Notes: generated by a model not told the origin, from the letters alone. A stretch of 56,787 nucleotides of DNA from Elusimicrobiota bacterium (GCA_016209085.1 JACQWV010000031.1:1-56787), one strand, 5' to 3'; counted from the first letter of the stretch, positions 5,494 through 46,162 are shown. Program-made: numbers and translations.

Positions 5494-5494
5494 T

Positions 5495-6295: not shown

Positions 6296-6296
6296 T

Positions 6297-23614: not shown

Positions 23615-24196
23615 ATGGACACGGAGTTTGAAATTCTTAAGGCGCTATCCGCCGGAGATGATTCTTCTTTCTCTGAAATACTTAAAAGACACTCAAAACC
23701 GCTTCTGAATTTAATATACAGGTTTACGCTGAACAGGGAAGATGCCGAGGATTTGTGCCAGGAAGTTTTCCTGCGGGTGTATCAAAACGCCGGGAAAATA
23801 AAACCCGATGCCATGTTTTCAACCATTCTCTACAAAATAGCTTCCAATCTCTGCATTGATTACCTGCGCAGGAATAAAACAAAAAGCGCAAAAATACGGC
23901 TCACTTATCTTGACGCAGAAATTGAAACGCAGGAAGGCTCTTTTAAAACCCAGATATCCGAAGAAAAACCATTACAGCCGGAAGAAATGACGGAAAAAAA
24001 AGAAAAAGAGAGCAGAATCTTTTCAGCGCTTCAATCCCTCCCCGAATCCCAGAGACTCGCTCTCATTCTGAAAACATACGAAAATAAATCCTACAGGGAA
24101 ATAGCGGAAATAATGGAAATAACCGTTCCGGCAGTGGAATCCCTTTTATTCCGCGCTCGCCAGAACATAAAAACAAAACTCCAGACTATAAAATAA
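23615..24196 (+). CDS. ECF-type RNA polymerase sigma factor
   Basis: This 193-aa protein has sigma region 2 (about 15-85, with NREDAEDLCQEVFLRVYQN) and region 4 (about 130-190, with SLPESQRLALIL and YREIAEIMEITVPAVESL), a group 4 (ECF) arrangement. It would direct polymerase to a stress or envelope regulon. The matching zinc-finger anti-sigma factor is probably the gene at 27036, but a 2.8-kb cassette lies between them. It follows the protease terminator directly. Confidence 0.88.
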   Translation: MDTEFEILKALSAGDDSSFSEILKRHSKPLLNLIYRFTLNREDAEDLCQEVFLRVYQNAGKIKPDAMFSTILYKIASNLCIDYLRRNKTKSAKIRLTYLDAEIETQEGSFKTQISEEKPLQPEEMTEKKEKESRIFSALQSLPESQRLALILKTYENKSYREIAEIMEITVPAVESLLFRARQNIKTKLQTIK

Positions 24197-24235: not shown

Positions 24236-24286
24236 GTAAATTCAATGCTTTGAGTAAATTAGCCCCCAACAAACCAAGGAGATACA

Positions 24287-24439
24287 ATGGATAAGAAGAA
24301 AAAAGAAGACCTGAACAAATGCGGTTGCGATGCTAATGTAATGACCAAAAAGGACAAAAAGAACAAGAAGTGGGTGAAGCCGGAACTGACAGATGTCTCT
24401 GGTCGTGTAATGGCACAGCCTTATATCAGATTTACGTGA
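24287..24439 (+). CDS. Candidate RiPP precursor peptide, 50 aa
   Basis: This 50-aa peptide has a Lys-rich N-terminal half containing CGC (12-14), then WVKPELTDVSG (29-39) and the tail RVMAQPYIRFT. W-x2-P-x-L-x4-G resembles the Y-x2-P-x-L-x3-G leader motif that RRE/PqqD domains bind in lasso-type precursors. It has a perfect AAGGAGAT ribosome-binding site, an upstream AT-rich promoter and its own terminator, and is followed by PqqD-like and radical SAM genes. That is the layout expected when a precursor must outnumber its enzymes. The core would be about residues 40-50, with Tyr46 a plausible target. The assignment is inferred from motif and context; I know of no matching family. Confidence 0.7.
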   Translation: MDKKKKEDLNKCGCDANVMTKKDKKNKKWVKPELTDVSGRVMAQPYIRFT

Positions 24440-24491
24440 TATTAAGCGAGTAAGCGATTTAGAAAACATCATAACGTTTTAAAGGGAGGGG

Positions 24492-24525
24492 GCGACGTTG
24501 ATAACGTCGTTCTTTTGTTTTATTC
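24492..24525 (+). terminator. Terminator between the peptide gene and its enzymes
   Basis: CGACGTT (24493-24499) pairs with AACGTCG (24503-24509), extended by a G-T pair, and is followed by TTCTTTTGTTTTATT. Incomplete read-through here would set the precursor-to-enzyme ratio. Confidence 0.7.
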
Positions 24526-24595
24526 TGAAATACCCCGGGTCAAGCCCTAGTGTGGTGTCCCTAACAGATCTTTAGATTTGGATATCATGGTTTTT

Positions 24596-24678
24596 GTAGG
24601 GGTTTGATTTATCAAACCCGCTTTTATTCGGGTCGGATAAATCCGTCCTTATAATTCAAGGAGAGGGACGACCCCTAC
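24596..24678. repeat. GTAGGGG...CCCCTAC palindromic element
   Basis: The outer GTAGGGG/CCCCTAC ends enclose a GGTTTGAT-TTATCAAACC hairpin and a GTCGGATAAATCCG word. Related copies lie at 33846-33905, within 14334-14390 and within 45107-45165. The whole gap 24440-24771 holds only the terminator and this element. Confidence 0.7.
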
Positions 24679-24771
24679 AATGCAGAATCAAATGTCAAGT
24701 TATTTATTCGCAACCCTTCAAGGACGAGGGAACATAATGATTAAAAAATAAAACCTGATTAGGAGAGAACT

Positions 24772-25023
24772 ATGGAATTCAAAAAGCATGTTCAGGTACG
24801 AAAAGAAAAATTTGGAATGGTGATATTTGAGACATTGAAAGAAAAGGTCTTTGTCACCAACTCAACCGGCGCAGATATTGTTGAGCGCCTCAAAGAGAAA
24901 AAGACGCCGGACACGATAATCACTGAACTGGCATTAGAGTACATCACCGAACCGAGCGCAATAGTCGATGATGTGAACTGTTTCATTGAAAAGCTTATCC
25001 AGCATGAAGTGTTGACAAAATAA
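24772..25023 (+). CDS. PqqD-like RiPP recognition element protein
   Basis: This 83-aa stand-alone protein matches the PqqD fold by pattern: beta strands with KEKFGMVIFE and VFVTNSTGADIVERL, then helices ending VDDVNCFIEKLIQHEVL. Such proteins bind the leader of a precursor peptide and present it to a radical SAM enzyme. Its neighbours are the 50-aa peptide upstream and the radical SAM gene 19 nt downstream. The AGGAGAGA ribosome-binding site is good. A mycofactocin MftB-like role is possible, but no MftA-like peptide is present. Confidence 0.8.
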   Translation: MEFKKHVQVRKEKFGMVIFETLKEKVFVTNSTGADIVERLKEKKTPDTIITELALEYITEPSAIVDDVNCFIEKLIQHEVLTK

Positions 25024-25042
25024 AAGGAGAACTAGACAACTT

Positions 25043-26023
25043 ATGGAACCCACAAAGAACTTTAACACCACCCCCGGCATGGCCGGAGAGAGCTTTGACG
25101 ATTTCAAGGCGCCGCTTTTCCTTGCGTGGCAAATAAATTCCGTGTGCAACCTTGGATGCCTTCACTGTTGCGAAGATTCTGGCCATCATATCCCCGGCGA
25201 AATGACAAGAGATGAGATATTCAACTTTCTGCATCAGGTCCGCGAAATGAATATTCCATACGTAGCTATTTCAGGTGGCGAGCCGCTCCTTCACCCTAAC
25301 TTTTTTGAGGTAGTAGAGTTCATCCGCGAATCTGGTATAAGCTTAAAGGTCGAGACCAACGGAGAGTTCATCGACGACAAAGTGGTAGATCGTTTTGTAG
25401 ATTTTGATTTCCGGTCGGTCCAGATAAGCCTTGACGGTGCAACCGCATCAACCCATGAAGTCCTGCGACTGAAGGGCGACTATAAGAAGTCATACACCGC
25501 TGTCAAAAACCTTGTGAAAAAGGGTGTGACAACAGAAATAGTGTTCGTCCCTACGAAATTCAATATTCATGAAGTTGGCGAAGCGATAGACATGGCATAT
25601 GACCTTGGTTGTTACGGATTTTATACAGGCAAGATAATGCGCATCGGCAGAGCCGCTTTGAACTGGGACAAACTGAACCCGATGGAAGAACAGTATAAGA
25701 CCTTCTTTAAGACGCTCGACGAAAAGACAAAACAATATGAGAATAAGATGAAGGTCTATTACTATCCCTACGATGTCATAGAAGAGCTTAAGTATAGATT
25801 AGAAAAACCCTCGGCGAGCCTCCTGATTGTTCCCAACGGAAATACCAAGCTTATAGGACCGCTTCCTTTCATCTGCGGCAATGTGAAGGAACAGCCTTTG
25901 GCGAAGGTCTGGGATCGCTATAAAAAGGCGTGGCATGAGCCAAAGGTCATAGAATTCACAAAAAGGGTCATAAAAGATCCGAGCCTTCTTGCCGAATCCA
26001 ATAAATGGCAAAACGTGTTTTAA
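25043..26023 (+). CDS. PqqE/MftC-like radical SAM enzyme with reduced SPASM region
   Basis: This 326-aa protein has the radical SAM cluster motif CNLGCLHC (Cys35, 39, 42, with an extra Cys43), then AISGGEPLLHP and VQISLDGA. It would cleave S-adenosylmethionine to modify a bound peptide. The C-terminal part has the SPASM-like path (VPNGNTKLIGPLPFICGNV then PLAKVWDRYKKAW) but only one Cys (Cys278). An auxiliary cluster with full Cys ligation is therefore unlikely. Lys codons here are mostly AAG and Arg codons mostly CGN, unlike the dcw genes, which suggests transfer. It overlaps the UbiA-type gene by 19 nt. Confidence 0.85.
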   Translation: MEPTKNFNTTPGMAGESFDDFKAPLFLAWQINSVCNLGCLHCCEDSGHHIPGEMTRDEIFNFLHQVREMNIPYVAISGGEPLLHPNFFEVVEFIRESGISLKVETNGEFIDDKVVDRFVDFDFRSVQISLDGATASTHEVLRLKGDYKKSYTAVKNLVKKGVTTEIVFVPTKFNIHEVGEAIDMAYDLGCYGFYTGKIMRIGRAALNWDKLNPMEEQYKTFFKTLDEKTKQYENKMKVYYYPYDVIEELKYRLEKPSASLLIVPNGNTKLIGPLPFICGNVKEQPLAKVWDRYKKAWHEPKVIEFTKRVIKDPSLLAESNKWQNVF

Positions 26024-26868
26024 GGTTCATCCGCTATCGTTTTTTGCTCTTTGCGGGTCTCCTGCCGTATTGTCTTGGCGCCTCCATCGCGTATCATGGC
26101 GTTTCGGTGTTCAACCTCAATCTTTTTCTAACAGGTCTTGTTGGCATCTTTTTTGCGCTTATTGGGGTAGAGGCATTCAATGAATATTTCGACTGGATAC
26201 TTGGGAGCGACCGTGTCTTTCAATTAGACCCTAAACCCGTTACAAAGAAAAAATTCCACATAGGTGTTGCGGCGTTTGCCGCAGCCCTTTTATTTGCAGT
26301 ATATCTAACCTTGCAGGTTGGAATAGGCATTGCCATTTTCGCTGTACTCGGTTTTATCGCGGCTGCGGGTTACCTTGGCCCGCCGTTAAGGTTCACATAT
26401 AGAGGATTAGGCGAGATCGTTATTGCCCTTTCATATGGACCCGACATGGTCCTGGGGAGCTACTATCTGCAGGCAGGTCATATAAGCATTATTCCGGTCG
26501 TTGTGTCGGTGATACCGGCTATTTTTTTGTTCTTAATAGCGATAATAAATGAGGTGCCTGACTTTTTGCAGGATAGACTCGTCGGCAAAAAAAATATATG
26601 CGTTAGGAACGGCAGGGAAAGAACGGTAGCCATATATGGCTTGATGTCGGTCGTTCTATATATAGCGTTGGCGCTGATAGTATTTGCAGGACTGCTACCA
26701 ACGGCCGGCCTTTTTATCTTATTAACCCTGCCTTTTATGTGGCGCAATTATTTCGTCGCAAAGGCCAAGTTGGACGCGCCTCAAGACATGTTGGGAGCGA
26801 TCCGCGGAACCCTGATAGTTTACATCATTTCCATGGGCATTTTGATAGTTTCTTACTTGAAAAAATAA
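26005..26868 (+). CDS. UbiA-family prenyltransferase
   Basis: This 287-aa protein has about eight to nine membrane segments and both Asp motifs of the UbiA superfamily: N-x3-D-x5-D in NEYFDWILGSD, and DFLQD in NEVPDFLQDRLVGKKN. It should move a prenyl chain from a diphosphate onto an acceptor in the membrane. It resembles the MenA-like branch, but the acceptor cannot be read from sequence. Its 19-nt overlap with the radical SAM gene argues for a joint pathway, perhaps prenylation of a peptide-derived product. A quinone-related role unconnected to the peptide remains possible. Confidence 0.8.
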   Translation: MAKRVLRFIRYRFLLFAGLLPYCLGASIAYHGVSVFNLNLFLTGLVGIFFALIGVEAFNEYFDWILGSDRVFQLDPKPVTKKKFHIGVAAFAAALLFAVYLTLQVGIGIAIFAVLGFIAAAGYLGPPLRFTYRGLGEIVIALSYGPDMVLGSYYLQAGHISIIPVVVSVIPAIFLFLIAIINEVPDFLQDRLVGKKNICVRNGRERTVAIYGLMSVVLYIALALIVFAGLLPTAGLFILLTLPFMWRNYFVAKAKLDAPQDMLGAIRGTLIVYIISMGILIVSYLKK

Positions 26869-26972: not shown

Positions 26973-27042
26973 ACAAGTTGCAAGTCACAGGTCACAAGCA
27001 AGGAACTACGAATTGCGAAAATCTGAAGATTGAATATGAAAT
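26973..27042. repeat. Degenerate heptamer array H7 (before the anti-sigma gene)
   Basis: Ten units can be laid out from ACAAGTT at 26973 (GCAAGTC, ACAGGTC, ACAAGCA, AGGAACT, ACGAATT and others) to ATGAAAT at 27036, which holds the start codon of the next gene. Confidence 0.8.
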
Positions 27043-27539
27043 GCGATGACGCGATAAAAAAACTTTCGGCTTATCTGGATAACGAGCTTAAGGACAATCT
27101 AAGAACAGAGCTGGAAAATCATTTAAAAATCTGCCCGGACTGCAGCCGGGAACATGAGACTTTGGCCGGAAACGCAAAATTCATGCTTACCCTGCCGGAG
27201 ATTGAACCTTCCCCATATTTTATCCAACAGACCCTGGCAAAAATACGCAAAACAGAAAGACGAGAAAAAGGCTTTTTTACATGGGTTCCTGTCCCGGCAA
27301 TGGCTGTCCTGATTCTGGTTCTGCTTTCTTATTTTCTGTCTTTTTCAATCAAGGTGTTCGCTCTTGAACCTGAATCAAGGAAAAAAATAGCCGGTCACGC
27401 TTTTGAAAGCGCGGTCAAAGGCTCTCACGTTCTGGGGCATGTTTCGTTTAAAAAATTCTGCAAAAGATCCTGTGACATCTTGTGCGAATGCAAAATTTGC
27501 CCAATGTATCAGAACAAAGGTGATAAGATGATACGATGA
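27036..27539 (+). CDS. Zinc-finger anti-sigma factor
   Basis: This 167-aa protein has an N-terminal anti-sigma zinc domain (MKCDDAIKKLSAYLDNEL, then H-x3-C-x2-C in HLKICPDC at about 31-38) and one membrane segment (about 89-110), followed by a short extracytoplasmic tail. Such proteins hold an ECF sigma factor inactive at the membrane. The partner is probably the sigma factor at 23615, separated by the peptide cassette. ATG 27036 is preferred to TTG 27030. The C-terminus (GDKMIR) is encoded by a GATGATA-type repeat. Confidence 0.8.
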   Translation: MKCDDAIKKLSAYLDNELKDNLRTELENHLKICPDCSREHETLAGNAKFMLTLPEIEPSPYFIQQTLAKIRKTERREKGFFTWVPVPAMAVLILVLLSYFLSFSIKVFALEPESRKKIAGHAFESAVKGSHVLGHVSFKKFCKRSCDILCECKICPMYQNKGDKMIR

Positions 27540-27559: not shown

Positions 27560-27811
27560 ATGAAATCAAAAACAGCGTTAATAAGTCTGTTGCTCGGCAT
27601 ACTTTCATTTATACATTTATTCGGCATTGAAAAAGCGGCGATGGCGATAATATTCGGGACAATTGCCCTGAAAGAGGGACTTGAAGACAAAAAATCAGGA
27701 TACATGGCAAAATCAGGCATTCTTCTCGGTCTGCTTTATCTTGTTGTCCTTACAGTCGTGTCAATAAAGTATTTTCCGGAAATGTTTAAACTCATTGAAA
27801 ATCTAAAATAA
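27560..27811 (+). CDS. Small membrane protein, DUF4190-like
   Basis: This 83-aa protein has two hydrophobic segments (about 4-35 and 50-72) and the pattern LLGILSF...AIIFGTIALKEG seen in DUF4190-type proteins, whose function is unknown. An AAGGAGAA ribosome-binding site precedes the ATG. Its stop overlaps the ATG of the TolC-like gene by 1 nt, so it is translated together with the metal-efflux genes. Confidence 0.65.
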   Translation: MKSKTALISLLLGILSFIHLFGIEKAAMAIIFGTIALKEGLEDKKSGYMAKSGILLGLLYLVVLTVVSIKYFPEMFKLIENLK

Positions 27812-29022
27812 TGAAAACAGCATTTTTTCTGTTTTTTCTGACAGCTTCTCTCTCTCCTGCTTATCCGCAGGAAACGATATCCATTGAAGAAATAATAAGA
27901 GAGGTCATTGACAAGAACCCTGAAATCAAGGCAGCTGAAAGCCTGTCTAAGGCTTACAAGACCCGCGTTCCCCAGTCATACTTTCCGGCAAATCCTTCCG
28001 TTGAATTTGAAAGAATGTACCTGCCTGATTCAGGGGAAAAGAATGTCTTATTGAAACAGGAACTGGAAAATCCGTACAAACTTCTTCTCATGCGCTCCAT
28101 TTTCAGGAAAGACGCCGATTATTACAAAAAACTTTTCCAAGCAAAAAGAAACCGGGTTGTTGCCGAAACAAAACAGGCATTTTACAGATATTATCTCTCA
28201 GAACGGTACGAAAAAATTTTCCGGGAAACAGCAGACATACTGACGGGGTTTTCAAAGACGGCGGAAGCAAAATACGCTGCAGGCCATGCCCGGCAGACGG
28301 ACGTGCTGAAATCGCAGGTGGAGCTTTCAAAAACCCTGAACATGCTGGTTACGATAAAACAGGAAAAAGAAACGGCCCGGGCGCTCTTAAATTCCCTGAT
28401 GGACAGGGATACCGAGTCTCCCCTGCCTCCTCCAGAAGAGCCTGAAAAGAAACCTGTAAGTCTGGATTTATCAATACTGCGCGCAAAAGCTTTGCAGATG
28501 AATCCTGAAATAGAAGCAATGAAAATAAACATTGCCAGAGCGGGGGATTTGCTGAAATCAGGCAAATCACAATGGCTGCCTGACTTTATGCTGGCTTACA
28601 GAACGCGCTCTGCTGGCGGTTCCGTAATGGATAACACCTATGATATTTCCATCGGATTAACCATACCCCTGTTTTTAGGCAAAAACGCCTCAATTGTCAG
28701 GCAGGCGCGGGCTGAAAAACAGATGGCTGAGGCAGAGTATAAATCTTCCGGAAACAAACTTTCTTTTGAAATTAAAAACGCGATAGTGCAGATTGAGACC
28801 GGCTTAAGGCTTATTGAACTTTATGAAACAAGCGTAATACCCCAGGCCGAGCAATCCCTGCAAATAGCGGATTCAAGCTACCGGGCCAATAAAATTGATT
28901 TCATTGACCTTCTTGACGCAGTCAGGACGCTGCTTGATTTTAAAACTGATTACTATGCTTACATAGCGCGACATTTAGAGTGGAAAGCGGAATTGGAAAG
29001 ATTAATCGGAGAAAATTTATGA
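27811..29022 (+). CDS. TolC-family outer-membrane efflux channel (CusC/CzcC type)
   Basis: This 403-aa protein has a signal peptide (about 1-19) and the two-repeat TolC helical arrangement, with paired long coiled-coil regions (about 105-175 and 300-385). It forms the outer-membrane duct of a tripartite pump. It lies directly upstream of the adaptor (4-nt ATGA overlap) and the RND transporter gene, so heavy-metal efflux is the likely role. The length is typical of the CzcC/CusC class. Confidence 0.85.
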   Translation: MKTAFFLFFLTASLSPAYPQETISIEEIIREVIDKNPEIKAAESLSKAYKTRVPQSYFPANPSVEFERMYLPDSGEKNVLLKQELENPYKLLLMRSIFRKDADYYKKLFQAKRNRVVAETKQAFYRYYLSERYEKIFRETADILTGFSKTAEAKYAAGHARQTDVLKSQVELSKTLNMLVTIKQEKETARALLNSLMDRDTESPLPPPEEPEKKPVSLDLSILRAKALQMNPEIEAMKINIARAGDLLKSGKSQWLPDFMLAYRTRSAGGSVMDNTYDISIGLTIPLFLGKNASIVRQARAEKQMAEAEYKSSGNKLSFEIKNAIVQIETGLRLIELYETSVIPQAEQSLQIADSSYRANKIDFIDLLDAVRTLLDFKTDYYAYIARHLEWKAELERLIGENL

Positions 29023-30062
29023 ATGCTAAAAAAATATTTTTTGCAATTATAGCGATAGTTTGTTTAATCACAGCGGTAATCTGGGTTTACAAAAATCATA
29101 ATTCAAGGACGGATACCAGACGATATGAGGCAGCCAAAAATTTATATTACTGTCCAATGCATCCTGACTATACTTCTGATAAACCCGGCTCATGTCCGAT
29201 ATGCGGAATGGATTTAGTGAAACAGGAGACGGCTAAAGATGAGGAAGAAACAAATATAAAAGGAACTGTCTCAATTGATACTGAAAAACAGCGTTTAATA
29301 GGCGTTAAAACAGGAAAAGCGGTTAAAAAAGAATTCGTTCTGAAAATCATAAGCCCGGGTAAAATAGCGTATGACCCGGACCTCTACCATGCTATATCAG
29401 AATACACAGAGGCAGTTGCAACGTCAGAAAAAACAAAAAACAGCCCGTGGCCTGAAGTGCGGGAAAGGTCCGAAATGCTGGTAAATTCCGCCGGACTGAA
29501 ACTCAGACAGATGGGCATATCTGATGAACAAATAAAAGACATCACAAATTCAAATAATAATTATACTAGTTTGCTCTTACCGCAGGAAAATAAAAATGCA
29601 TGGGCGTACATTCAGATATATGAATATGAAATCGGACTCATAAAACCCGGGCAGGCGGTTGAAATAACGGCCCCGGCTTATCCGGGCAGGAAATTCAAAG
29701 GAACCATAAAATCCGTTGATTCAATAATTTCTCCTGAAACAAGAACCCTGCGCGCAAGGGCAGAAACCGAAAATCCCGGGGGGCTTTTAAAACCGGAAAT
29801 GTACGTTGATGCCGAGATATCAGTTAATCTGGGCAAAAAGCTCTTAATTCCCGCAGACTCTGTGCTGGACACGGGCAAAAAGAGAATAATATTTATAGAC
29901 AAAGGTTCAGGCAAATTTGAACCCAGGGACATCCAGACCGGCAAATCAAACGGAGAATACGTGGAAGTGCTGAACGGCCTTAAAGAAGGAGAAAAAATAG
30001 TCGTTTCGTCAAATTTTCTCATAGATTCCGAATCAAAATTAAAATCAGCGTTGGAAAGATAA
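29019..30062 (+). CDS. RND periplasmic adaptor with heavy-metal-binding domain (CusB type)
   Basis: This 347-aa protein has an N-terminal membrane anchor or signal (about 4-22) and a heavy-metal-binding module YYCPMHPDYTSDKPGSCPIC (about 39-58), common in CusB/CzcB proteins. A barrel-sandwich and beta-barrel adaptor fold follows (about 90-345). It links the RND pump to the TolC-like channel. ATG 29019 overlaps the upstream stop; the start at 28980 lies inside the preceding gene. The Cys/His/Met content suggests Cu(I)/Ag(I), but Zn/Co/Cd cannot be excluded. Confidence 0.85.
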   Translation: MNAKKIFFAIIAIVCLITAVIWVYKNHNSRTDTRRYEAAKNLYYCPMHPDYTSDKPGSCPICGMDLVKQETAKDEEETNIKGTVSIDTEKQRLIGVKTGKAVKKEFVLKIISPGKIAYDPDLYHAISEYTEAVATSEKTKNSPWPEVRERSEMLVNSAGLKLRQMGISDEQIKDITNSNNNYTSLLLPQENKNAWAYIQIYEYEIGLIKPGQAVEITAPAYPGRKFKGTIKSVDSIISPETRTLRARAETENPGGLLKPEMYVDAEISVNLGKKLLIPADSVLDTGKKRIIFIDKGSGKFEPRDIQTGKSNGEYVEVLNGLKEGEKIVVSSNFLIDSESKLKSALER

Positions 30063-30063
30063 G

Positions 30064-30085
30064 TCCGAAAATTGCAATTTTCGGA
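30064..30085. repeat. Perfect 22-bp palindrome after the adaptor gene
   Basis: TCCGAAAATTG is followed at once by its reverse complement CAATTTTCGGA. It lies 1 nt after the adaptor stop and could slow transcription toward the pump gene. No T-run follows. Confidence 0.5.
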
Positions 30086-30086
30086 T

Positions 30087-30128
30087 AGTCACAAGACACA
30101 AGTCACATGTCACAAGAAACAACTGAAC
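30087..30128. repeat. Degenerate heptamer array H9
   Basis: Six units lie in register: AGTCACA, AGACACA, AGTCACA, TGTCACA, AGAAACA and ACTGAAC. Confidence 0.85.
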
Positions 30129-30139
30129 TTTTCGGATTA

Positions 30140-30277
30140 ATATAAATGTAAATGCTCACTGAAGCACGTCATTCCCGTGTAAACGGGAATCTATAGATTC
30201 CCACTCCCTGCTTACTACCTGCAGGGACAAGTTTCGTGGGAATGACAACGGGATTCGCTGAATATTTACATATAAAT
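30140..30277. mobile_element. MITE-like element copy C with 8-bp target duplication
   Basis: The 122-bp element (30148-30269) starts GTAAATGCTCACTGAA and ends TTCGCTGAATATTTAC, imperfect terminal inverted repeats of each other. It is flanked on both sides by ATATAAAT (30140-30147 and 30270-30277), a perfect 8-bp duplication. The interior holds a GTCATTCCCGTG / CGTGGGAATGAC-type hairpin and no ORF. Confidence 0.85.
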
Positions 30278-30280
30278 TTT

Positions 30281-30500
30281 TCAAAGCCGCAAGGCAAGTT
30301 TACAAGGGAGCGATTTGTGAGGTTTAGCCTTGCCGAGCAAGGTTTATGAGGGTATCCCTCCGGGACGGCGAGGATGTTTGAGGGCAAAAACATTGCTTTT
30401 TGCCCGAGTTCCGCAGCCGCCGAGTAAACCGCAGCGAACAACGGCGTTAAAAACCTCACCATGAGCGATTCTGGAAACTTGCCGTAAAAGAGGGCTTTGA
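30281..30500. repeat. 220-bp long-arm inverted-repeat element
   Basis: TCAAAGCC, GGCAAGTTT and GTGAGGTTT on the left (30281-30325) pair with AAACCTCAC, AAACTTGCC and GGCTTTGA on the right (30451-30500), with internal loops. The centre holds a perfect GGGCAAAAA-6-TTTTTGCCC hairpin. It resembles the element at 54080-54296 in size and plan and lies directly upstream of the RND gene. Confidence 0.65.
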
Positions 30501-30532
30501 ATCTTATTATAGCTGTGACAGACACAAATAGT

Positions 30533-33500
30533 ATGATAAGAAAAATAATTGCGTTTTCAGCCAATAACCGGGGATTGGCGTTAATATTCTCCGCGATCGC
30601 GGTTCTCGGCGCGTGGCAGGCCCTGAAAAACATCCCGATTGACGCCATACCTGATTTGTCAGACACTCAGGTCATAGTTTATTCCAGGTGGGACCGCTCC
30701 CCGGACATAATGGAAGACCAGGTCACCTACCCGGTAATAACTTCTCTTCTGGGCCTCCCCAGAGTAAAAACAATAAGAGGATTTTCTGATTTCGGCTATT
30801 CATTCGTATATGTCATATTCCGGGACGGGACCGACATTTACTGGGCTCGTTCAAGAGTTCTTGAATATCTGAGCAAAGTTCTGCCCCAGCTTCCCGAAGG
30901 AGTGCGCACAGAACTCGGCCCAGACGCCACTGGAGTAGGCTGGATTTTCCAGTACGCGCTGATTGACAAAACAGGGCGGCATTCCCTTGCTGATTTAAGA
31001 AGCTATCAGGACTGGAACCTGCGCTACAACCTCCAGTCGGTTCCCGGCGTAGCTGAAGTCGCTTCCATAGGCGGATTCCAGAAGCAGTATCAGGTAAACA
31101 TCAATCCCAACAGACTTGCGGTTTACAACATACCTCTCACGAAAGTTCTTGAAGCAGTTAAAAACGGCAACCAGGAAACCGGAGCGAGAGTCATAGAATT
31201 TTCAGGCGCGGAATACATGATACGGGGCAAGGGCTACGCAAAATCAGTAAAAGACATAGAAACCCTAGTTGTCGGACGCGACAGAAGCGGCACGCCTGTG
31301 CTTGTAAAAAACATAGCCGGCGTGGCCACCGGTCCTGAAATGCGGCGCGGCATATCGGATTTAGACGGAGAAGGAGACGCTGTCGGCGGAATAATCGTAA
31401 TGCGCCACGGAGAAAACGCTCTCAACGTCATAAAAAGGGTCAGGGAAAAAATAGAATCCATAAAACAATCCCTGCCAAAAGGCATGGAAATAGTTACAAC
31501 TTATGACAGGTCAGACCTTATTTTAAGGGCAATGGACACGCTCAAACGCCAGCTTATAGAAGAAATGATAATAGTCAGTCTTGTAATACTTTTATTTTTA
31601 TGGCACATTCCTTCGGCAATAGTGCCCATACTTACAATACCAATTTCTGTTCTTCTGGCTTTCATGCCAATGTATTTAGCCGGCATAAATTCAAACATAA
31701 TGTCTTTATCAGGCATTGCGATATCAATAGGGGTTCTTGTGGACGGAGCCATCGTTGAGGTGGAAAACGCGTATAAAAAGCTTGAATTATGGCAGGAAGG
31801 GGGGAAACAGGGGGATTTTCATAAAATCAGGCTTGAAGCCCTGCAGGAAGTCGGCCCTTCCGTCTTTTTTTCTCTGCTTGTGATAGCAGTAGCTTTCATG
31901 CCCATATTCACCCTGGTGGACCAGGAGGGCCGGCTTTTCAAGCCGCTTGCATGGACAAAAAACCTGACAATGGCAATAGCGGCCATTCTGGCAGTAACCC
32001 TTGACCCTGCCCTCAGGATGAGTTTCACGAGAATGGACAATTTTAATTTCAGACCTGCCTGGCTTGCCAGAATCACCAACGGTGTTCTTGTCGGAAAATA
32101 CTATCCTGAGGAAAAACATCCGGTAAGTAAAATGCTTTTCAGAATATACGAACCCGCGTGCGAATTCGTGCTGAAATATCCGAAACAAATCATAACAGCG
32201 TCAGTACTGCTTGTGCTTTCAACTATACCGGTGTTTCTCAAAACAGGATCTGAATTCATGCCTCCCCTTAATGAAGGCAGCATCCTGTACATGCCCACGA
32301 CTCTGCCCGGAATATCAGTTACCGAAGCGCAGAAACTTCTTGAAGTCCAGGACAAGATACTTAAATCAGTTCCAGAGGTGGAAAGAGTTTTCGGAAAAGC
32401 CGGAAGAGCCGAAACTTCAACCGACCCCGCGCCTTTTTCAATGATGGAAACCACCGTGATTTTAAAACCCCACGAAGAATGGCGGGAAAAAACCAGATGG
32501 TATTCGTCATGGGCGCCGGATTTTCTGAAAGCTGTTCTGCGCCATGTATGGTATGACAGGATAACATGGGAAGAGCTTATTTCAGACATGGATTCAAAGA
32601 TGAAATTTCCCGGCGTTACGAACGCATGGACAATGCCCATAAAAGCCCGAATAGACATGCTCACGACCGGCGTCAGGACTCCGATAGGCATCAAGATTTT
32701 CGGCTCCGACCTTGACGCGATAGAAAAAACCGGCATAGAAATAGAAAAAGCTCTCAGGAATCTTGAAGGAACCCGCTCCGTTTATGCGGAGAGAACAGCC
32801 GGAGGCTACTTTCTTGATTTTGTTCTCAAGAGAGAAAACCTCGCAAGATACGGCATTTCAATAAAAGAAGCCCAGGAAATACTCATGACAGCCGTAGGGG
32901 GAGAGCCTCTTACTACCACGATAGAAGGAAGAGAGCGCTATACGGTCAGCGTCAGATACGGCAGGGAATTCAGAAATGACATTGAAAGCCTGAAAAAAGT
33001 CCGGGTTCCGGCCGTCGGCATAGCCTCCGGCACCTGGGGCGGCAGAGCCGCTGTTCCGGCCTCGGAAACCCTGCAGGTTCCGCTTGAGCAGATAGCTGAT
33101 ATTGAATTAAAACAGGGGCCCGGAATGATAAGAGACGAAAACGGGCTTTTGAGCGGGTACGTGTATGTTGACATAACAGGCATAGACGTGGGAACTTATG
33201 TAAAAAAAGCAAAAGAAACGGTAAACAAAAACATACGGCTTCCTGCCGGCTACACGCTTGAGTGGAGCGGGCAGTACGAAAACATGCTGAGAGTCAGGGA
33301 AAGACTAAAGATTGTTCTCCCCCTGACCATATTTATAATTTTCATTCTCTTATACATGAACACCAAATCCGTTTTCAAGACCCTTCTGGTTCTGACTGCA
33401 GTGCCTTTTTCTTTAATAGGCGCTGTATGGTTCATATACCTGCTCGGATATAACATGTCTATCGCTGTATGGGTTGGAATGATTGCTCTCATGGGATTGG

Positions 33501-33823
33501 ACGCTGAGACAGGCGTATTCATGCTTTTGTTTCTGGACCTTTCCTATGAGGAAATGAAAAAAAAGAAAGGAGTTCTGGACCATAACTCCCTGAAAGAAGC
33601 CATAATCCACGGAGCAGTGAAAAGAGTCAGGCCCAAGATGATGACTGTGTCAGCCGCGTTTATGGGTCTTATCCCTATCATGTGGTCATTGGGGACAGGC
33701 TCTGATTTGATGAAACGCATCGCGGCTCCCATGATAGGCGGGCTTTTCACGAGTTTTCTGCTTGAACTGCTGGTTTATCCTGCGGTTTATTATTTGTGGA
33801 AAAAACAATCTACTGCATTGTGA
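30533..33823 (+). CDS. Heavy-metal efflux RND transporter (CusA/CzcA family)
   Basis: This 1096-aa protein is the proton-driven inner-membrane pump of a tripartite metal exporter. It has twelve membrane segments in two groups and the HME-RND signatures RDG(T)DIYWARSRV, ISIGVLVDGAIVEVENA and LMGLDAETGVFMLLFLDL. The ATG at 30533 (MIRKIIAFSANNRGLA) fits the family; the TTG at 30497 lies in an upstream repeat. A 16-residue insert around residues 828-843 (GIASGTWGGRAAV) interrupts a periplasmic loop where homologues run directly from LPV to the VPL strand. It is encoded by the 48-bp repeat at 33013-33060, flanked by a 9-bp direct repeat. Confidence 0.92.
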   Translation: MIRKIIAFSANNRGLALIFSAIAVLGAWQALKNIPIDAIPDLSDTQVIVYSRWDRSPDIMEDQVTYPVITSLLGLPRVKTIRGFSDFGYSFVYVIFRDGTDIYWARSRVLEYLSKVLPQLPEGVRTELGPDATGVGWIFQYALIDKTGRHSLADLRSYQDWNLRYNLQSVPGVAEVASIGGFQKQYQVNINPNRLAVYNIPLTKVLEAVKNGNQETGARVIEFSGAEYMIRGKGYAKSVKDIETLVVGRDRSGTPVLVKNIAGVATGPEMRRGISDLDGEGDAVGGIIVMRHGENALNVIKRVREKIESIKQSLPKGMEIVTTYDRSDLILRAMDTLKRQLIEEMIIVSLVILLFLWHIPSAIVPILTIPISVLLAFMPMYLAGINSNIMSLSGIAISIGVLVDGAIVEVENAYKKLELWQEGGKQGDFHKIRLEALQEVGPSVFFSLLVIAVAFMPIFTLVDQEGRLFKPLAWTKNLTMAIAAILAVTLDPALRMSFTRMDNFNFRPAWLARITNGVLVGKYYPEEKHPVSKMLFRIYEPACEFVLKYPKQIITASVLLVLSTIPVFLKTGSEFMPPLNEGSILYMPTTLPGISVTEAQKLLEVQDKILKSVPEVERVFGKAGRAETSTDPAPFSMMETTVILKPHEEWREKTRWYSSWAPDFLKAVLRHVWYDRITWEELISDMDSKMKFPGVTNAWTMPIKARIDMLTTGVRTPIGIKIFGSDLDAIEKTGIEIEKALRNLEGTRSVYAERTAGGYFLDFVLKRENLARYGISIKEAQEILMTAVGGEPLTTTIEGRERYTVSVRYGREFRNDIESLKKVRVPAVGIASGTWGGRAAVPASETLQVPLEQIADIELKQGPGMIRDENGLLSGYVYVDITGIDVGTYVKKAKETVNKNIRLPAGYTLEWSGQYENMLRVRERLKIVLPLTIFIIFILLYMNTKSVFKTLLVLTAVPFSLIGAVWFIYLLGYNMSIAVWVGMIALMGLDAETGVFMLLFLDLSYEEMKKKKGVLDHNSLKEAIIHGAVKRVRPKMMTVSAAFMGLIPIMWSLGTGSDLMKRIAAPMIGGLFTSFLLELLVYPAVYYLWKKQSTAL
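33004..33060 (+). repeat. 48-bp coding repeat, copy 2 (inside the RND pump gene)
   Basis: The copy occupies 33013-33060. GTTCCGGCC occurs at 33004-33012 and again at 33052-33060, exactly 48 bp apart, so 16 codons were added without changing frame. It matches the yidD copy at 40 of 48 and the hisS copy at 35 of 48 positions by my alignment. Confidence 0.85.
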
Positions 33824-36253: not shown

Positions 36254-37159
36254 ATGAAAAACCTAAAAATACTTGCAATTCTTTTATCCGCCTTACTCAT
36301 ATCTTGTAATAATGAAAGCCAGAAGCCCATAAAAGTGAAATTAAGAGATGACGCAAATATACAAGATAAAGAGCAAAAAAATGTCACTAATACTTTGAGG
36401 ATATTGATAGCTCCTGTGATTTCTCCGAAGGAATCCATGATTTTATATCATCAGTTTGTAGACTATCTATGGGAAAAAACAAATATGGAGATGACACAGA
36501 TATTGAAAAAGAACTATGCCGAAGCAAATGAAGCGATAAAAAATCAGCAATGCGATATAGCCCTTATATGCACAGGAGCATATGTGTTATCTAAAAAAGA
36601 ACTGCCCGTGGAAATTCTCGTTATACCGGTTGTAAAGAAAAAAATTGTATACAATTCTTATATCATCGCCAATATTAACAGTAATATAGAAATCTTTGAC
36701 GATTTAGAAGGCAAAACCTTCGCTTTCACCGACCCTCTTTCTTTAACAGGGTATCACTATGTAAGGCACTTGCTGTGGGCAAAAAAAACGAATACGAATA
36801 ATTATTTTAAAAGCACCATATATACAAACAGCCATGACATATCCATTGAAGCGGTAGCGCAGGGAATAGTAGATGTAGCCAGTATTGACAGCTTAATTTA
36901 TGATGATTTAAAGGACAAAAAAAATCCGTATGTTCTAAAAACGAAAATAATAAAAGTCTCTGAAGATTTCGGAATACCGCCGATATTAATAAGAAAAGAT
37001 TTGGATATAAAAATAAAGAACAAAATAAGAAACATATTGTTGGGCATGCATAATGACCCAAAAGGACGGGAAATTCTAAAAAAATTATCCATAGATTCAT
37101 TCACTGTCGGCAATGAGAAAATTTATGAAAGCGCAGAGAAAATATTAATCTTAAAATAA
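36254..37159 (+). CDS. PhnD-like periplasmic binding lipoprotein (sensor accessory)
   Basis: This 301-aa protein has a lipoprotein signal (about 1-18, lipobox LLISC) and a PhnD-type periplasmic binding fold (TLRILIAPVISPKESM ... CDIALICTGAYV ... FAFTDPLSLTGYH). It lies 2 nt before a sensor kinase and its regulator. In TtrS, AioX and ArxX/ArrX systems a PhnD-like module senses tetrathionate or arsenic oxyanions for the kinase. Here it is a separate lipoprotein, so it is probably a ligand-binding partner and not an ABC transporter component, since no permease or ATPase is nearby. Confidence 0.8.
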   Translation: MKNLKILAILLSALLISCNNESQKPIKVKLRDDANIQDKEQKNVTNTLRILIAPVISPKESMILYHQFVDYLWEKTNMEMTQILKKNYAEANEAIKNQQCDIALICTGAYVLSKKELPVEILVIPVVKKKIVYNSYIIANINSNIEIFDDLEGKTFAFTDPLSLTGYHYVRHLLWAKKTNTNNYFKSTIYTNSHDISIEAVAQGIVDVASIDSLIYDDLKDKKNPYVLKTKIIKVSEDFGIPPILIRKDLDIKIKNKIRNILLGMHNDPKGREILKKLSIDSFTVGNEKIYESAEKILILK

Positions 37160-37161
37160 CC

Positions 37162-38568
37162 ATGAGAAAACTGCTGATAAATTTTATAAACAAAATAACC
37201 TCTGTCTCATTATTTGTAAAGGTTATCGGAATAGCGCTATTTCTTACATTATTGTATGGATTTGGAACCCTGCTCCAAACAAAAACCTTATTAAAAACCA
37301 ACCTGCAAAAAAACACAGACGAGCAATTGCTTCTAATATCTCGCTATATTGAAAATAGAATTAAAAATTCACTATTGACAGACGATTGGGCAGATGTTTA
37401 CAAAACAATTGAAGATTCTTTGAGCATTTATAATGACATAAAATACATACTTGTTCTTGACAATGATTATAATTTGCTGTTTAAAACCCTGGACTATAAT
37501 GTTTCAAAAGAACTCATCCTGGCGAATAAACCAGAGCCCGGCAACATTTATAAACTGAAACTATTGAAAACTGAACAAGGCTATATAAGAGATATAGCAA
37601 TGCCAATTTTTGACGGCCGGCTTGGAATAATCAGGGTAGGGGTTACAATAAATCAAATATATCAGACATTAAGCGCCATAACTGAAAAACTTGTCATCTC
37701 AATATTTCTGGTTTCTATCGCTGCTGTATTCTTGTCATATTTACTGTCTTACATTCTAAATATACCCATTAAAAATCTAACGAAGGCTATCTCAGAAATG
37801 AAAAAAGGCAAGATGAATATAAACATAAAACCAATATTTAATGACGAGATAGGCGAATTAACCAGAACATTCAATGCCATGATAGAAAACATAAAAATTG
37901 AAAAACAAAAAAGATTTGACCTGATGAAAAAAATAATAAAAAGTCAGGAGGAAGAAAGGCATAGAATTTCAAGAGAACTTCATGATAAAACAGGACAGTA
38001 TCTGACTTCATTAAAAATGATGTTAAAGTCAATAACTAAAACATCTCTTGTAAACGCAAATGGAAACGATAAATTGGCAGAAATATCAAAAGCCCTTGAT
38101 GAATCCATAGACGAAATACATAATTTTGCGGTTGAACTCAGAAATCCGATATTAAGCGATTTGGGACTGATAAAATCTGTGGCCGAATTTATAAATAATT
38201 TTTCCCATAATTCCAATATAAAAGTGAGTATGCGCTTAGATGACAAAACAAAAAATATGAGATTTGACCCTAATGTTGAAATAGCGATATATAGGGTAAT
38301 TCAGGAGGCTTTCTCAAACATATATAACCATTCAAAAGCTACAACGGTAGATATATATTTTAAGTGTTCTGAAAACAAATTTGTAATAGAAATTATTGAC
38401 AACGGCACAGGCTTTGATGTTGAGTTGGCGAAAAATAATCCTGATAGAAAAAGCATAGGTCTTTTTGGAATAAAAGAAAGAATAGAACTTATAGACGGCA
38501 TTTTTTTCATATATTCAAAAATCGGCTCCGGCACAGAAATACGAATAGAAATACCAGCAAAAATATGA
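37162..38568 (+). CDS. Sensor histidine kinase, NarX/HisKA_3 type
   Basis: This 468-aa protein has two membrane segments (about 15-35 and 178-200) bounding a periplasmic domain, then a HAMP linker (about 200-252). A HisKA_3 dimerisation region with phospho-acceptor His274 in RELHDKTGQ is followed by a C-terminal HATPase (DNGTGFD; GLFGIKERIELI). It would respond to the upstream PhnD-like lipoprotein and phosphorylate the regulator encoded next, whose start overlaps its stop (ATGA). Composition is distinctly AT-rich. Confidence 0.88.
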   Translation: MRKLLINFINKITSVSLFVKVIGIALFLTLLYGFGTLLQTKTLLKTNLQKNTDEQLLLISRYIENRIKNSLLTDDWADVYKTIEDSLSIYNDIKYILVLDNDYNLLFKTLDYNVSKELILANKPEPGNIYKLKLLKTEQGYIRDIAMPIFDGRLGIIRVGVTINQIYQTLSAITEKLVISIFLVSIAAVFLSYLLSYILNIPIKNLTKAISEMKKGKMNINIKPIFNDEIGELTRTFNAMIENIKIEKQKRFDLMKKIIKSQEEERHRISRELHDKTGQYLTSLKMMLKSITKTSLVNANGNDKLAEISKALDESIDEIHNFAVELRNPILSDLGLIKSVAEFINNFSHNSNIKVSMRLDDKTKNMRFDPNVEIAIYRVIQEAFSNIYNHSKATTVDIYFKCSENKFVIEIIDNGTGFDVELAKNNPDRKSIGLFGIKERIELIDGIFFIYSKIGSGTEIRIEIPAKI

Positions 38569-39200
38569 AAGAAAAGATAAAAATAGCGATAGTTGACGAC
38601 CATCCGATATTAAGAAGCGGACTAAAAATGCTGCTGAGCGATTATAAGGATATAAATGTTGTAAGTGAAGCGGGCAGCGGAAAAGAAATCTTGCAAAAAT
38701 TAAATCTGAATTCAAATATAGATATAATTTTATTGGACATTAATTTGCCTGATATAAATGGGTTGTTATTGGTCAATGAAATAAGGAAAATAAATAACAA
38801 TATAAAAATACTGATTCTAACAATGTATGACAATGAAAGCTATTTAAATGAATTTTTAAGAAACGGGGTTTCAGGATATATCACTAAAAAATCAGCCGAC
38901 ATAGAACTCATAAAAGCAATTTATGAAGTAAATGAAGGCAGGACATTCATAGATAACATTCTATCCAGAAGCCGGATAAAAGCGCATGGTGAAGAAAAAA
39001 AATTAAGCGAGAGGGAAAAAGAAGTAGTCAATTTAGTAGTTAAAGGTTTGACAAATAAAGAAATATCGACAAAACTAAACATAAGCATAAAAACAGTGGA
39101 AACCTACCGTTTAAGAATCACAAATAAATTAAAAATATACAACAAAGGCGAGTTGCTGAAGTATGCGATAAAAGAAGGTATGTTTAATCCGCTTGAGTAA
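38565..39200 (+). CDS. NarL/FixJ-family response regulator
   Basis: This 211-aa protein has a receiver domain with acidic pocket VDDHP (Asp11, Asp12) and phospho-acceptor Asp58 in LLDINLP, then a LuxR-type helix-turn-helix (about 145-205: LSEREKEVVNLVVKGLTNKEIS ... SIKTVETYR). It probably activates the downstream porin and molybdoenzyme genes. It overlaps the kinase gene by 4 nt. An A/T-rich inverted repeat (TTTTAAAA-5-TTTTAAAA, 39308-39328) in the next gap is a candidate binding site. Confidence 0.9.
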   Translation: MKEKIKIAIVDDHPILRSGLKMLLSDYKDINVVSEAGSGKEILQKLNLNSNIDIILLDINLPDINGLLLVNEIRKINNNIKILILTMYDNESYLNEFLRNGVSGYITKKSADIELIKAIYEVNEGRTFIDNILSRSRIKAHGEEKKLSEREKEVVNLVVKGLTNKEISTKLNISIKTVETYRLRITNKLKIYNKGELLKYAIKEGMFNPLE

Positions 39201-39307
39201 ATTCAATCCCCTGCTTATAAAAATACCATTCCATAGTGCTGCTACGAAAAAAATGTAGTACGAGACTTTAGTCTCGCCTGCAATATCTTGTAAGTATTTT
39301 TCCTGAC

Positions 39308-39328
39308 TTTTAAAATCCAATTTTAAAA
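39308..39328. promoter_or_regulatory. Possible operator upstream of the porin gene
   Basis: TTTTAAAA, a 5-nt spacer and TTTTAAAA form a dyad between the response regulator gene and the porin. The A/T-rich sequence makes chance occurrence easy. Confidence 0.25.
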
Positions 39329-39380
39329 AGTAAACTTTAAAATCACTAATGAAATTAATTAAATAGGAGGAAAAATACTT

Positions 39381-40556
39381 ATGCGGTACATGCAATTGAG
39401 TTTATTGGGATTGGTGCTGCTGGTAGTCGGATTCAGGCTGACAAACGCTCAGGAAGAATTCAAGCCGACAATGGACTTTAAAGGCTCCAGGGTCGCAATA
39501 GGCTACATTGATTCTAAATATGACGGTTCTTTCCCTGTGGGTTCTTTCCAGATGCCGGACGGGAAACTCCGGTTTAACTGGAACACGACGCCTGACATAA
39601 CCTTTGTTACAAGGATAAGTTTTAGTAATACTACCGTCGCGGGATTTGATTATTTCTATATGGACTATAAAAATTTCCTTACAGAAATATCTCCTGCTTT
39701 TAAGGACGGATTGTTTAATCCAACACTTAGACTCGGCAGAATTAAATTAGATATCGGCGAAGAGACATGGTCGGACAATTCGGTTGAAAGCATAGTTGTT
39801 TCCAATTCAGCCGGCCTGGTAAACGGCTATGATGAAGGAGCGCAACTTCACCAATCTCTCAAAAAGGATCAACTTGGTATTCCGGTGAAATGGTCTTTAA
39901 GTCTTACAAATGGCAACAAGGATACCGGAGCGGATAATCAATCAGCCAAGGCAATTTGCTTTAAAGCCGGCATTAACCCCATAAACGAATTATATATTTC
40001 AGGAAGTTATTATAATTCCGGCGAACTTCTCACTGCTGACGCGGATGTCGCTTATGCAGGACTAAAGTCCAGACCTGTGAATGCCACAGAATGGACAAGG
40101 AACATAATAGAAGTTGATATGCGCTATGATTTTAAGCCGGTAAAAGAAGACAGGCTGAATCCCGGCGCTCCTGCGTGGTCAGACAGCAAAGCGTATATCC
40201 GGACAGCGTACGGTCAATTCAAGGATGACGGCGAAGACACAGCAGCGCCGATTACTGAAGTCGCAGACAGAAAAGGCATTTACTATTTTGCAGAAGGCGG
40301 ATACAATCTTACGGAAAAAATTTACCTTGGCGGCCGGCACAGCAAAATAGAGTTTGATAAAAACGATGTTTTTGCAATATTGAACAGCGTCGCTAATGCC
40401 AATGCATACACCCGCACTTCTTTTGGAGCCGGCTACCGCTTATCAGGAAACGCTCATGCGAAATTTGAGTATGTAAAAAACTCTGAAAAAATGCAAACAG
40501 GCAGCACGGAGCCTAAAAACGATCAGATTGTTTTTTTGATTACAGCTAAGTTCTAG
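39381..40556 (+). CDS. Porin-like outer-membrane beta-barrel protein
   Basis: This 391-aa protein has a signal peptide (about 1-24, ending TNAQ-EE), alternating polar/hydrophobic strands throughout, many aromatic residues and a terminal Phe (LITAKF). Together these are typical of a 16-strand porin. It has a strong AGGAGGAAAAAT ribosome-binding site. Its place between the sensor operon and the molybdoenzyme genes suggests it admits the anionic electron acceptor across the outer membrane; that is inference. Confidence 0.75.
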   Translation: MRYMQLSLLGLVLLVVGFRLTNAQEEFKPTMDFKGSRVAIGYIDSKYDGSFPVGSFQMPDGKLRFNWNTTPDITFVTRISFSNTTVAGFDYFYMDYKNFLTEISPAFKDGLFNPTLRLGRIKLDIGEETWSDNSVESIVVSNSAGLVNGYDEGAQLHQSLKKDQLGIPVKWSLSLTNGNKDTGADNQSAKAICFKAGINPINELYISGSYYNSGELLTADADVAYAGLKSRPVNATEWTRNIIEVDMRYDFKPVKEDRLNPGAPAWSDSKAYIRTAYGQFKDDGEDTAAPITEVADRKGIYYFAEGGYNLTEKIYLGGRHSKIEFDKNDVFAILNSVANANAYTRTSFGAGYRLSGNAHAKFEYVKNSEKMQTGSTEPKNDQIVFLITAKF

Positions 40557-40627
40557 GCATACAAGCATGATGTATCTCCATATAGAAGTGAAATATTAAA
40601 ATAAATATCGTTTATACTCCTTACTTT

Positions 40628-40661
40628 ACCTGCATCCCCCTTTCTAATGGGGGATGCAGGT
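40628..40661. repeat. Perfect 13-bp-stem hairpin before the Fe-S subunit gene
   Basis: ACCTGCATCCCCC (40628-40640) pairs with GGGGGATGCAGGT (40649-40661) around an 8-nt loop. No T-run follows, so it may be a palindromic repeat or an attenuating structure between porin and oxidoreductase genes. Confidence 0.6.
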
Positions 40662-40695
40662 GGGATAACAATAATAAACGAGAAGGTGAATGTCT

Positions 40696-41550: not shown

Positions 41551-41604
41551 GATTCTTTCTTGGGAGAAGAATGACCTGAAAGTGAAAAAAGGAGGAACGC
41601 TGAA

Positions 41605-42522: not shown

Positions 42523-42536
42523 GGAGGGATAAAAAC

Positions 42537-45778: not shown

Positions 45779-46086
45779 AATTAATTAAATATATGAAAAA
45801 GAGTTGCAATGGATTTTATGTTGTTGTTCCAAAATTGAAATTTAGATATGAGACATTACACGCCATTTATTCCAAAGATTGCATTGGAACTATTGAAACC
45901 CAATTAAAAAAGAATAATCTTAAAATCACAGATTTTTTCCAAAATGTTAAAACAAAAGAAATTACAGCTGATATCATAAAAAAATTTGATCCCGCGTTTT
46001 TATCGTTTTTTAACATAAATACACCGTTTAATTATCGCAAAGCATTGAAAATTGCAGAAACTAAATCTTTCGAGTGTTTACCCTAA
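45769..46086 (+). pseudogene. mobA: mobA 3' fragment (molybdenum cofactor guanylyltransferase)
   Basis: The open frame (ATG at 45793, readable from about 45769) matches the C-terminal half of MobA: GFYVVVPKLKF, LHAIYSKDCIGTIE, a KNNLKITDFF-type helix and the terminal SFFNINTPFNYRKAL. The N-terminal GTP-binding half, with its LAGG-x-S-x-RMG loop, is absent. MobA would attach GMP to molybdopterin, which a DMSO-reductase-type enzyme requires. The fragment cannot do this alone. It abuts the tatC fragment, pointing to a deletion between two adjacent genes or to misassembly. Confidence 0.75.
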
Positions 46087-46162
46087 CGTTGTTGAGGCTA
46101 TGGTTAAACACCGACAGGGCAGCGGTGGAAACGCTTCTGCCTCCCGGAACTTGGAAAGAAAG

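Follow-up and report, generated by a model that had tools for sequence, protein, structure and literature searches.

The window, by which we mean the whole stretch of DNA analysed (56,787 nucleotides), comes from an Elusimicrobiota genome (G000; 2.35 Mb, 98% complete). At positions 24287-26868 it carries four genes on the plus strand, encoding a 50-aa peptide, a PqqD-like protein, a radical SAM (rSAM) enzyme and a UbiA-type prenyltransferase. The features of this cassette are as follows:

24276..24281, plus strand: AAGGAG, ribosome-binding site for the precursor peptide gene (sequence)
24287..24439, plus strand: precursor peptide, 50 aa, MDKKKKEDLNKCGCDANVMTKKDKKNKKWVKPELTDVSGRVMAQPYIRFT (sequence; homologues)
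24371..24388, plus strand: leader recognition motif W29-V-K-P32-E-L34 (WxxPx[LMI]), whose W and P do not vary among complete homologues
24407..24436, plus strand: invariant core VMAQPYIRFT, residues 41-50, followed immediately by the stop codon (homologue comparison)
24486..24516, plus strand: possible intrinsic terminator or attenuator hairpin in the gap between the peptide and PqqD genes (consensus match; fold not significant)
24772..25023, plus strand: stand-alone PqqD-like RiPP recognition element (RRE), 83 aa (PF05402; AlphaFold model and Foldseek)
25043..26023, plus strand: radical SAM enzyme, 326 aa (PF04055; model and Foldseek)
26005..26868, plus strand: UbiA-superfamily membrane prenyltransferase, MenA/UBIAD1-like (PF01040; invariant motifs; UBIAD1 match in the PDB)

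The initial annotation, made from sequence alone, had described a four-gene cassette with an overlapping UbiA gene, a W-x2-P-x-L-x4-G leader-like motif and a ribosome-binding site of the peptide, and a terminator of its own behind the peptide gene. Gene calls and Pfam matches upheld the cassette, in which the UbiA and rSAM genes overlap by 19 bases, and both the ribosome-binding site and the motif (W29-x2-P-x-L34-x4-G39) were confirmed. The terminator held only in part: the hairpin has 14 pairs and a T-rich stretch behind it, but the fold of the surrounding 105 nt is nothing exceptional when compared with shuffled sequences (z = −1.2). A separate terminator for the peptide gene is therefore plausible but unproven.

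Two other genomes of the same family, G002 and G013, share the PqqD-rSAM-UbiA gene order, with 75-87% identity to the window proteins. The G002 peptide (47 aa, with WIKPELTDVSGRVMAQPYIRFT) occupies the same place as in the window and differs from it only synonymously in the last ten codons; the G013 contig begins immediately ahead of PqqD. Genes neighbouring the cassette are unlike among the three genomes; the cassette is thus a self-contained module. In the window, it is flanked by genes for an ECF sigma factor (23615-24196) and an anti-sigma factor (27030-27539). As a regulator pair of the cassette these could be ruled out, being absent beside it in G002 and G013. The rSAM gene has no other close copy in the G000 genome. 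A phage origin was rejected, since neither the tail pattern of the peptide nor the rSAM had a match in 2.9 million viral contigs, and so was a plasmid origin, since plasmid matches were ordinary MftC, PqqE and MenA.

The system is present in 51 of 341 phylum genomes. The rSAM family was detected in 50 of them, mostly as three tandem paralogues, and the remaining one, G215, was included on the strength of a partial rSAM3 at the end of a contig. In the other families of the class (~50 loci), the genes are arranged in the order polyprenyl-diphosphate synthase, PqqD, rSAM1, UbiA, rSAM2, peptide, rSAM3. This order breaks chiefly at contig ends, and one locus (L040) has a Fic gene inserted before rSAM3. 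The synthase (PF00348, E-value = 2.3e−44) opens nearly all loci of the class; no synthase match precedes PqqD in L050, which begins at a contig start, L053 and L140. UbiA lies within the operon in every complete locus. In the rSAM tree, rSAM1, rSAM2 and rSAM3 form distinct clades, and the window type constitutes its own branch adjoining rSAM3. The window thus represents a short form of the locus with a single rSAM and without rSAM2, rSAM3 or the synthase; whether this form is ancestral or reduced is undecided.

Clustering of the flanks revealed no additional gene conserved across all loci. Within the cluster, no gene looks like a leader protease and none like PqqB, PqqC, MftD or another late oxidase, the operon contains no gene for aromatic-acid synthesis, and an exporter is not an operon component in the loci read. 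About ten loci of one family (f15) have a MarR-like regulator immediately upstream of the synthase. The closest named cassette-bearing relatives are Elusimicrobia MAGs. It should be noted that outside the phylum only viral contigs and plasmids were covered informatively by our searches: a scan of a genome collection, based on an alignment of three near-identical rSAMs and on only two 7-mers, returned just two known relatives.

The peptide has no match to any family in Pfam, NCBIfam or PHROGs. Nevertheless, all 49 recovered peptides end in VMAQPYIRFT followed by a stop codon. Over their last 22 codons they comprise 42 different full-length DNA sequences and 18 different 22-mers. Synonymous changes are numerous in the tail codons and, as the DNA alignment of the family shows, are the only changes there, whereas the N-terminus and the spacer drift freely. 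The core does not vary over about 15 genera. In every complete copy, the leader has an invariant W at position −22 and P at −19, while only L, M or I occurs at −17. Good ribosome-binding sites precede the peptide in nearly all loci. A codon pattern for MAQPYIRFT matched 47 of the 341 phylum genomes, each of them bearing the rSAM cassette, and none of the 291 genomes lacking it; a reversed control pattern had no match in the 341 genomes. The association between pattern and rSAM cassette is strong (Fisher p of about 1e−54), with the caveat that the genomes are not independent. The three rSAM genomes without the pattern (G013, G181 and G207) are each truncated by contig ends, and the peptide was found in every locus whose rSAM2-rSAM3 interval is intact. 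Because of this, and because 22 of the peptide copies came from a similarity search that did not require the exact pattern, the invariance of the core cannot be solely an artefact of the pattern search. An additional stand-alone copy of the peptide (L167), with no enzymes nearby, was observed in G232. A role of the peptide as RiPP precursor is, in our view, very likely.

The PqqD-like protein matches PF05402 with an E-value of 1.4e−9. Its AlphaFold model (pLDDT 86.5) is most similar, according to Foldseek, to TbiB1 and lasso B1 proteins with bound leader peptide (TM 0.84-0.92), followed by the NMR structure of PqqD (TM 0.81). The model thus predicts an RRE fold capable of leader binding, for which there are no binding data. 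Discrete RREs recognise the motif [Y/W]xxPx[L/V/I/F/A] (PMC13381572), and the conserved Elusimicrobiota leader motif fits it, additionally allowing M. The rSAM enzyme matches PF04055 (E-value = 2.4e−23) and has invariant CxxxCxxC and GGEP motifs. The CxxxCxxC cysteines are the only invariant ones among 37 aligned members; no Pfam match to SPASM was obtained and the C-terminal SPASM cysteines were not found. The nearest structures to the rSAM model (pLDDT 92) are SkfB, SuiB and PqqE, all of them peptide maturases, and the enzyme is accordingly predicted to resemble RiPP maturases in fold. Its top NCBIfam match is MftC, with 137.8 bits against a cut-off of 265. Since NCBIfam matches of all three window enzymes are far under the family cut-offs, none of the three is a known equivalog.

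UbiA was assigned to PF01040 with an E-value of 6.9e−22 and 78.4 bits (gathering score 34.2). Both Asp motifs, NEYFD...GSDR and NEVPDFLQD...VGK, are invariant in 21 aligned members. By sequence, the sole PDB match is UBIAD1, the enzyme that makes menaquinone-4. However, the cassette UbiA falls below the MenA cut-offs (49.5 vs 102 bits for TIGR00751 and 92 vs 277 bits for NF004749). It is the sole UbiA-family protein found in G002, G176 and G210. G000 encodes a second UbiA, which exceeds the MenA cut-off and adjoins another polyprenyl synthase, so that this organism could prenylate salvaged naphthoate. UbiA genes outside any cassette occur in cassette-free relatives too.

We compared the cassette with known systems. 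A short precursor, a PqqD-type RRE and a radical SAM peptide maturase are shared with PQQ biosynthesis, and PqqE is among the nearest solved relatives of the rSAM. Moreover, the 22-residue layout, with W1, P4, Y18 and four residues after the Tyr, recurs in PqqA from a Streptomyces plasmid. These W, P and Y are the only identical residues, and the resemblance is a likeness of layout rather than proof of homology. PqqA has a cross-link between a Glu and this Tyr (PMC10906245); that Glu, at position 14 of the layout, is replaced by Met in the Elusimicrobiota peptide. The cassette also lacks PqqB and PqqC, contains UbiA and a polyprenyl synthase and, in most relatives, three rSAMs, and its scores are below the cut-offs for PqqD (25.9 vs 46 bits) and PqqE (73 vs 381 bits). 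Mycofactocin biosynthesis similarly combines an RRE with a radical SAM enzyme (MftC, the top match noted above) working near a C-terminal Tyr and yields a redox cofactor with ties to respiration. However, the MftA tail is IDGMCGVY rather than VMAQPYIRFT, mycofactocin is glycosylated rather than prenylated, and MftD, E and F are missing from the cassette operon. As the family cut-offs are not met, PQQ and mycofactocin themselves can be ruled out.

Other RiPP systems show more limited similarity. The RREs of lasso peptides (TbiB1 and relatives) and of the recent LPP family share the [Y/W]xxPx[L] leader motif and the leader-bound RRE fold. In contrast to lasso peptides, the core is invariant and no lasso cyclase, asparagine-synthetase-like C protein or B2 protease is conserved in the loci read, although the flanks were incompletely searched. 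SynChlorMet and GeoRSP, multi-rSAM cassettes of unknown function, also combine a PqqD-like protein with several radical SAM proteins, but our cassette scores far under their cut-offs, and to our knowledge their definitions include no UbiA. Cyanobactins and ComX are ribosomal peptides bearing a prenyl group; there, short prenyl groups are attached by enzymes of the ABBA type or by ComQ, and a UbiA membrane enzyme with a polyprenyl synthase is not known to take part. In the literature searched, no work dealt with radical SAM and prenyltransferase in Elusimicrobia, and none with the tail sequence or with a RiPP in combination with a respiratory quinone. The cassette is a genuine RiPP-type system at the level of the phylum, with UbiA and a polyprenyl synthase, and matches no class found in that literature.

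With menaquinone biosynthesis (futalosine/MqnP, MenA, UBIAD1) the cassette shares a polyprenyl synthase and a UbiA with MenA-like Asp motifs. Neither menaquinone pathway is present in the cassette genomes tested: MenD exceeded the cut-off in none of the 80 genomes tested, and full-length MqnA/MqnD were found in 30 of the 341 genomes, none of which has the cassette (p = 0.006, not corrected for kinship). Four genomes of family f11, including cassette-bearing G176, show only weak partial matches (PF02621 in G176). Because the genomes are MAGs of shared ancestry, p-values overstate the evidence. Two cassette-free members of the window's family, G014 and G022, encode UbiD-, UbiA-, UbiX-, MqnE-, MqnA-, MqnC- and MqnD-type genes in a row, and the UbiA of this futalosine cluster (MqnP) differs from that of the cassette. 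Phyletically, the cassette takes the place that the futalosine cluster has in sister genomes, and a normal menaquinone pathway around the cassette UbiA can be ruled out.

Most cassette genomes encode oxidases or other respiratory complexes. Heme-copper oxidase is present in 36 of 44 cassette genomes vs 10 of 36 other genomes tested, and NuoH-type subunits were detected in every cassette genome tested. One NuoH type of the window's family (~940 bp) is confined to three cassette and two futalosine genomes out of 22 tested. Directly behind the cassette, G002 and G013 have DsbD_TM, ResB, Cytochrom_C_asm and heme-synthesis genes. In the window, genes for an Fe-S subunit, an NrfD membrane subunit, a PhsA/ArrA-like molybdenum subunit and sensors lie 10-18 kb downstream, and molybdenum-cofactor genes come after this NrfD-type molybdoenzyme operon. 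Electrons pass between NrfD-type subunits and the quinol pool, and the organism therefore needs a membrane electron carrier. On the other hand, eight relatives (G178, G179, G180, G211, G214, G217, G226 and G229) encode oxidases without the cassette, Mqn or MenD, indicating that the cassette is not the sole route to respiration in the class. Of these, G214 and G217 are 97 and 99% complete.

The initial annotation had also proposed a new RiPP-type class combining PqqD/rSAM with UbiA, which is supported by the homologous loci, the conserved core and the literature searched. The check it proposed, on co-occurrence of the genes and conservation of the peptide tail, came out positive, the peptide accompanying the enzymes wherever the contig is long enough. 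Neither of the two outcomes it named as refuting was borne out: the peptide is not absent from related genomes in which the enzymes persist, and UbiA does not belong to a normal menaquinone pathway, MenD over the cut-off and full-length MqnA/MqnD being absent from the cassette genomes tested. Its suggestions of Tyr46 as the modified site, of a quinone and of a lipid anchor are still inference. The three rSAM paralogues and the polyprenyl-diphosphate synthase of most relatives, as well as the link to respiration, go beyond what it had claimed.

On balance, we favour the view that the cassette makes a RiPP-derived, polyprenylated membrane cofactor, although no product has been seen. Gene content and order, the unvarying core, the co-occurrence, the modelled folds and the absence of both menaquinone pathways are observed; the order of steps, the site and kind of modification, prenylation of the peptide product and the redox role are all inferred. 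The PqqD-like RRE would grip the leader through WxxPxL and offer the C-terminal VMAQPYIRFT to the rSAM enzyme(s), which would alter the core, most likely at Tyr46. This residue is the likeliest target because its distance from the W/P anchor equals that of the reactive Tyr of PqqA; by analogy, Tyr46 would reach the rSAM site as in PqqA, but the product would not be PQQ. UbiA would then join a polyprenyl chain, supplied in most relatives by the synthase of the same operon, to the Tyr-derived aromatic head group, with the fate of the peptide remainder undetermined. That the cassette UbiA prenylates the peptide product is likely, yet only inferred. The resulting lipid would act as a membrane electron carrier standing in for menaquinone, a part of the proposal that we regard as tentative and slightly less probable than its negation. 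The never-varying core suits a cofactor better than an antibiotic. Against this explanation, the cluster has no leader protease or late oxidase, and the window form has no rSAM2, rSAM3 or synthase; against its redox part, the polyprenyl group may be a mere membrane anchor.

The alternative that survives best, and remains possible, is that the product, a prenylated lipopeptide, has no redox activity and is anchored in the membrane for signalling, envelope maintenance or defence. In this case, the rSAMs would introduce cross-links or epimerisations into the core, and UbiA would supply the lipid anchor. The gene evidence for a RiPP and prenylation is identical, the ten invariant core residues seem more than a small head group needs, and the stand-alone peptide copy in G232 also speaks for it. 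However, a phylum-wide invariant core typifies cofactors rather than signals or toxins, the phyletic pattern tracks respiration and excludes futalosine menaquinone, and the operon has no exporter.

A second alternative, which we find unlikely, is that there are two unrelated products: a soluble cofactor akin to PQQ or mycofactocin, derived from the peptide, and an ordinary quinone made by UbiA (with the synthase) from a separate small aromatic acid. It is favoured by the MenA/UBIAD1-like character of the cassette UbiA, by the other MenA and synthase kept in G000 and by the oxidase-bearing lineages without Mqn, MenD or the cassette, which may have a quinone route not yet known. Against it, each complete locus of the class has its UbiA gene placed between those for rSAM1 and rSAM2, the short-form UbiA overlaps the rSAM gene on differing genomic backgrounds, the operon has no gene for aromatic-acid synthesis, and UbiA scores under the MenA cut-offs. 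Finally, that the small ORF is a regulatory or structural protein or arose by chance, with the enzymes acting elsewhere, is supported only by its lack of a known family and is all but excluded by its complete linkage to the enzymes, a C-terminus that stays invariant while its codons change synonymously, the good ribosome-binding sites of almost every locus and a leader motif suited to the RRE; the phylum-wide linkage of the pattern to the cassette, together with the conserved tail and leader, rules out a chance ORF.

To return to the favoured polyprenylated cofactor, isoprenoid quinones are not known to be built otherwise than from small aromatic precursors, nor are redox cofactors derived from ribosomal peptides (PQQ, mycofactocin) known to carry a lipid. 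If the proposal is true, the cassette would define a new class of RiPP whose pathway includes a membrane-bound UbiA and a polyprenyl synthase dedicated to it, and its product, a polyprenylated, ribosomally templated cofactor of a kind not known before, would unite the quinone and RiPP fields. The bolder reading, for which the evidence falls a little short, is that a gene-encoded respiratory quinone or quinone-like lipid carrier replaces menaquinone in much of Elusimicrobiota; it would account for the respiration of many oxidase-bearing Elusimicrobiota that have neither menaquinone pathway.

The cassette in the window sits between genes for an ECF sigma factor and an anti-sigma factor, as if inserted into a sigma/anti-sigma pair; no such bracketing is found at the cassettes of G002 and G013, two genomes of the same family. 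The adjoining RND gene set likely encodes a metal efflux system.

Window 23615-24196: ECF sigma factor
Window 27030-27539: zinc-finger anti-sigma factor
Window 27811-33823: genes for TolC-like, membrane-fusion and AcrB-type RND proteins, close to heavy-metal-binding domains

Within the cassette, the peptide-PqqD spacer (window 24520-24700) contains inverted GGGTTTGAT/ATCAAACCC as well as inverted GTAGGGG/CCCCTAC elements, resembling a small repeat insertion. The corresponding G002 spacer does not align with it.

Two related genomes carry additional parts.

L167 (G232:C257) 3582-3701, - strand: second, stand-alone precursor peptide of G232
L040 (G223) 4840-6342: Fic-domain gene

The G232 peptide has a tail identical to that of the cassette peptide and a slightly different leader (WETPVIDEVTDRVMAQPYIRFT), with no maturation enzymes on its short contig. 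In G223, the Fic-domain gene separates the peptide from rSAM3, an arrangement absent from the other loci read.

Other genes bear on quinones.

Window 36254-44981 and 46052-50480: operon for quinol-linked anaerobic respiration
L171 (G000:C137) 3377-5187: polyprenyl synthase and MenA

The operon encodes a phosphonate-binding-type sensor protein, a histidine kinase, a response regulator, a porin-like protein, an Fe-S subunit, NrfD and a PhsA/ArrA/TtrA-like molybdenum subunit with a Tat-like signal, whose gene is followed by MoaA, MoaCB and MoeA. Polysulfide, thiosulfate, arsenate and tetrathionate are all conceivable substrates, with no choice among them settled. MenA of L171 scores over the TIGR00751 cut-off, and the window genome (G000) lacks MenD and MqnA/D; the L171 pair might serve naphthoate salvage. 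Four other class members (G211, G214, G217 and G226) possess heme-copper oxidases and NuoH, and lack MenD, MqnA/D and the cassette. These genomes may have either a further quinone route, as yet unidentified, or a cassette that has diverged very far.
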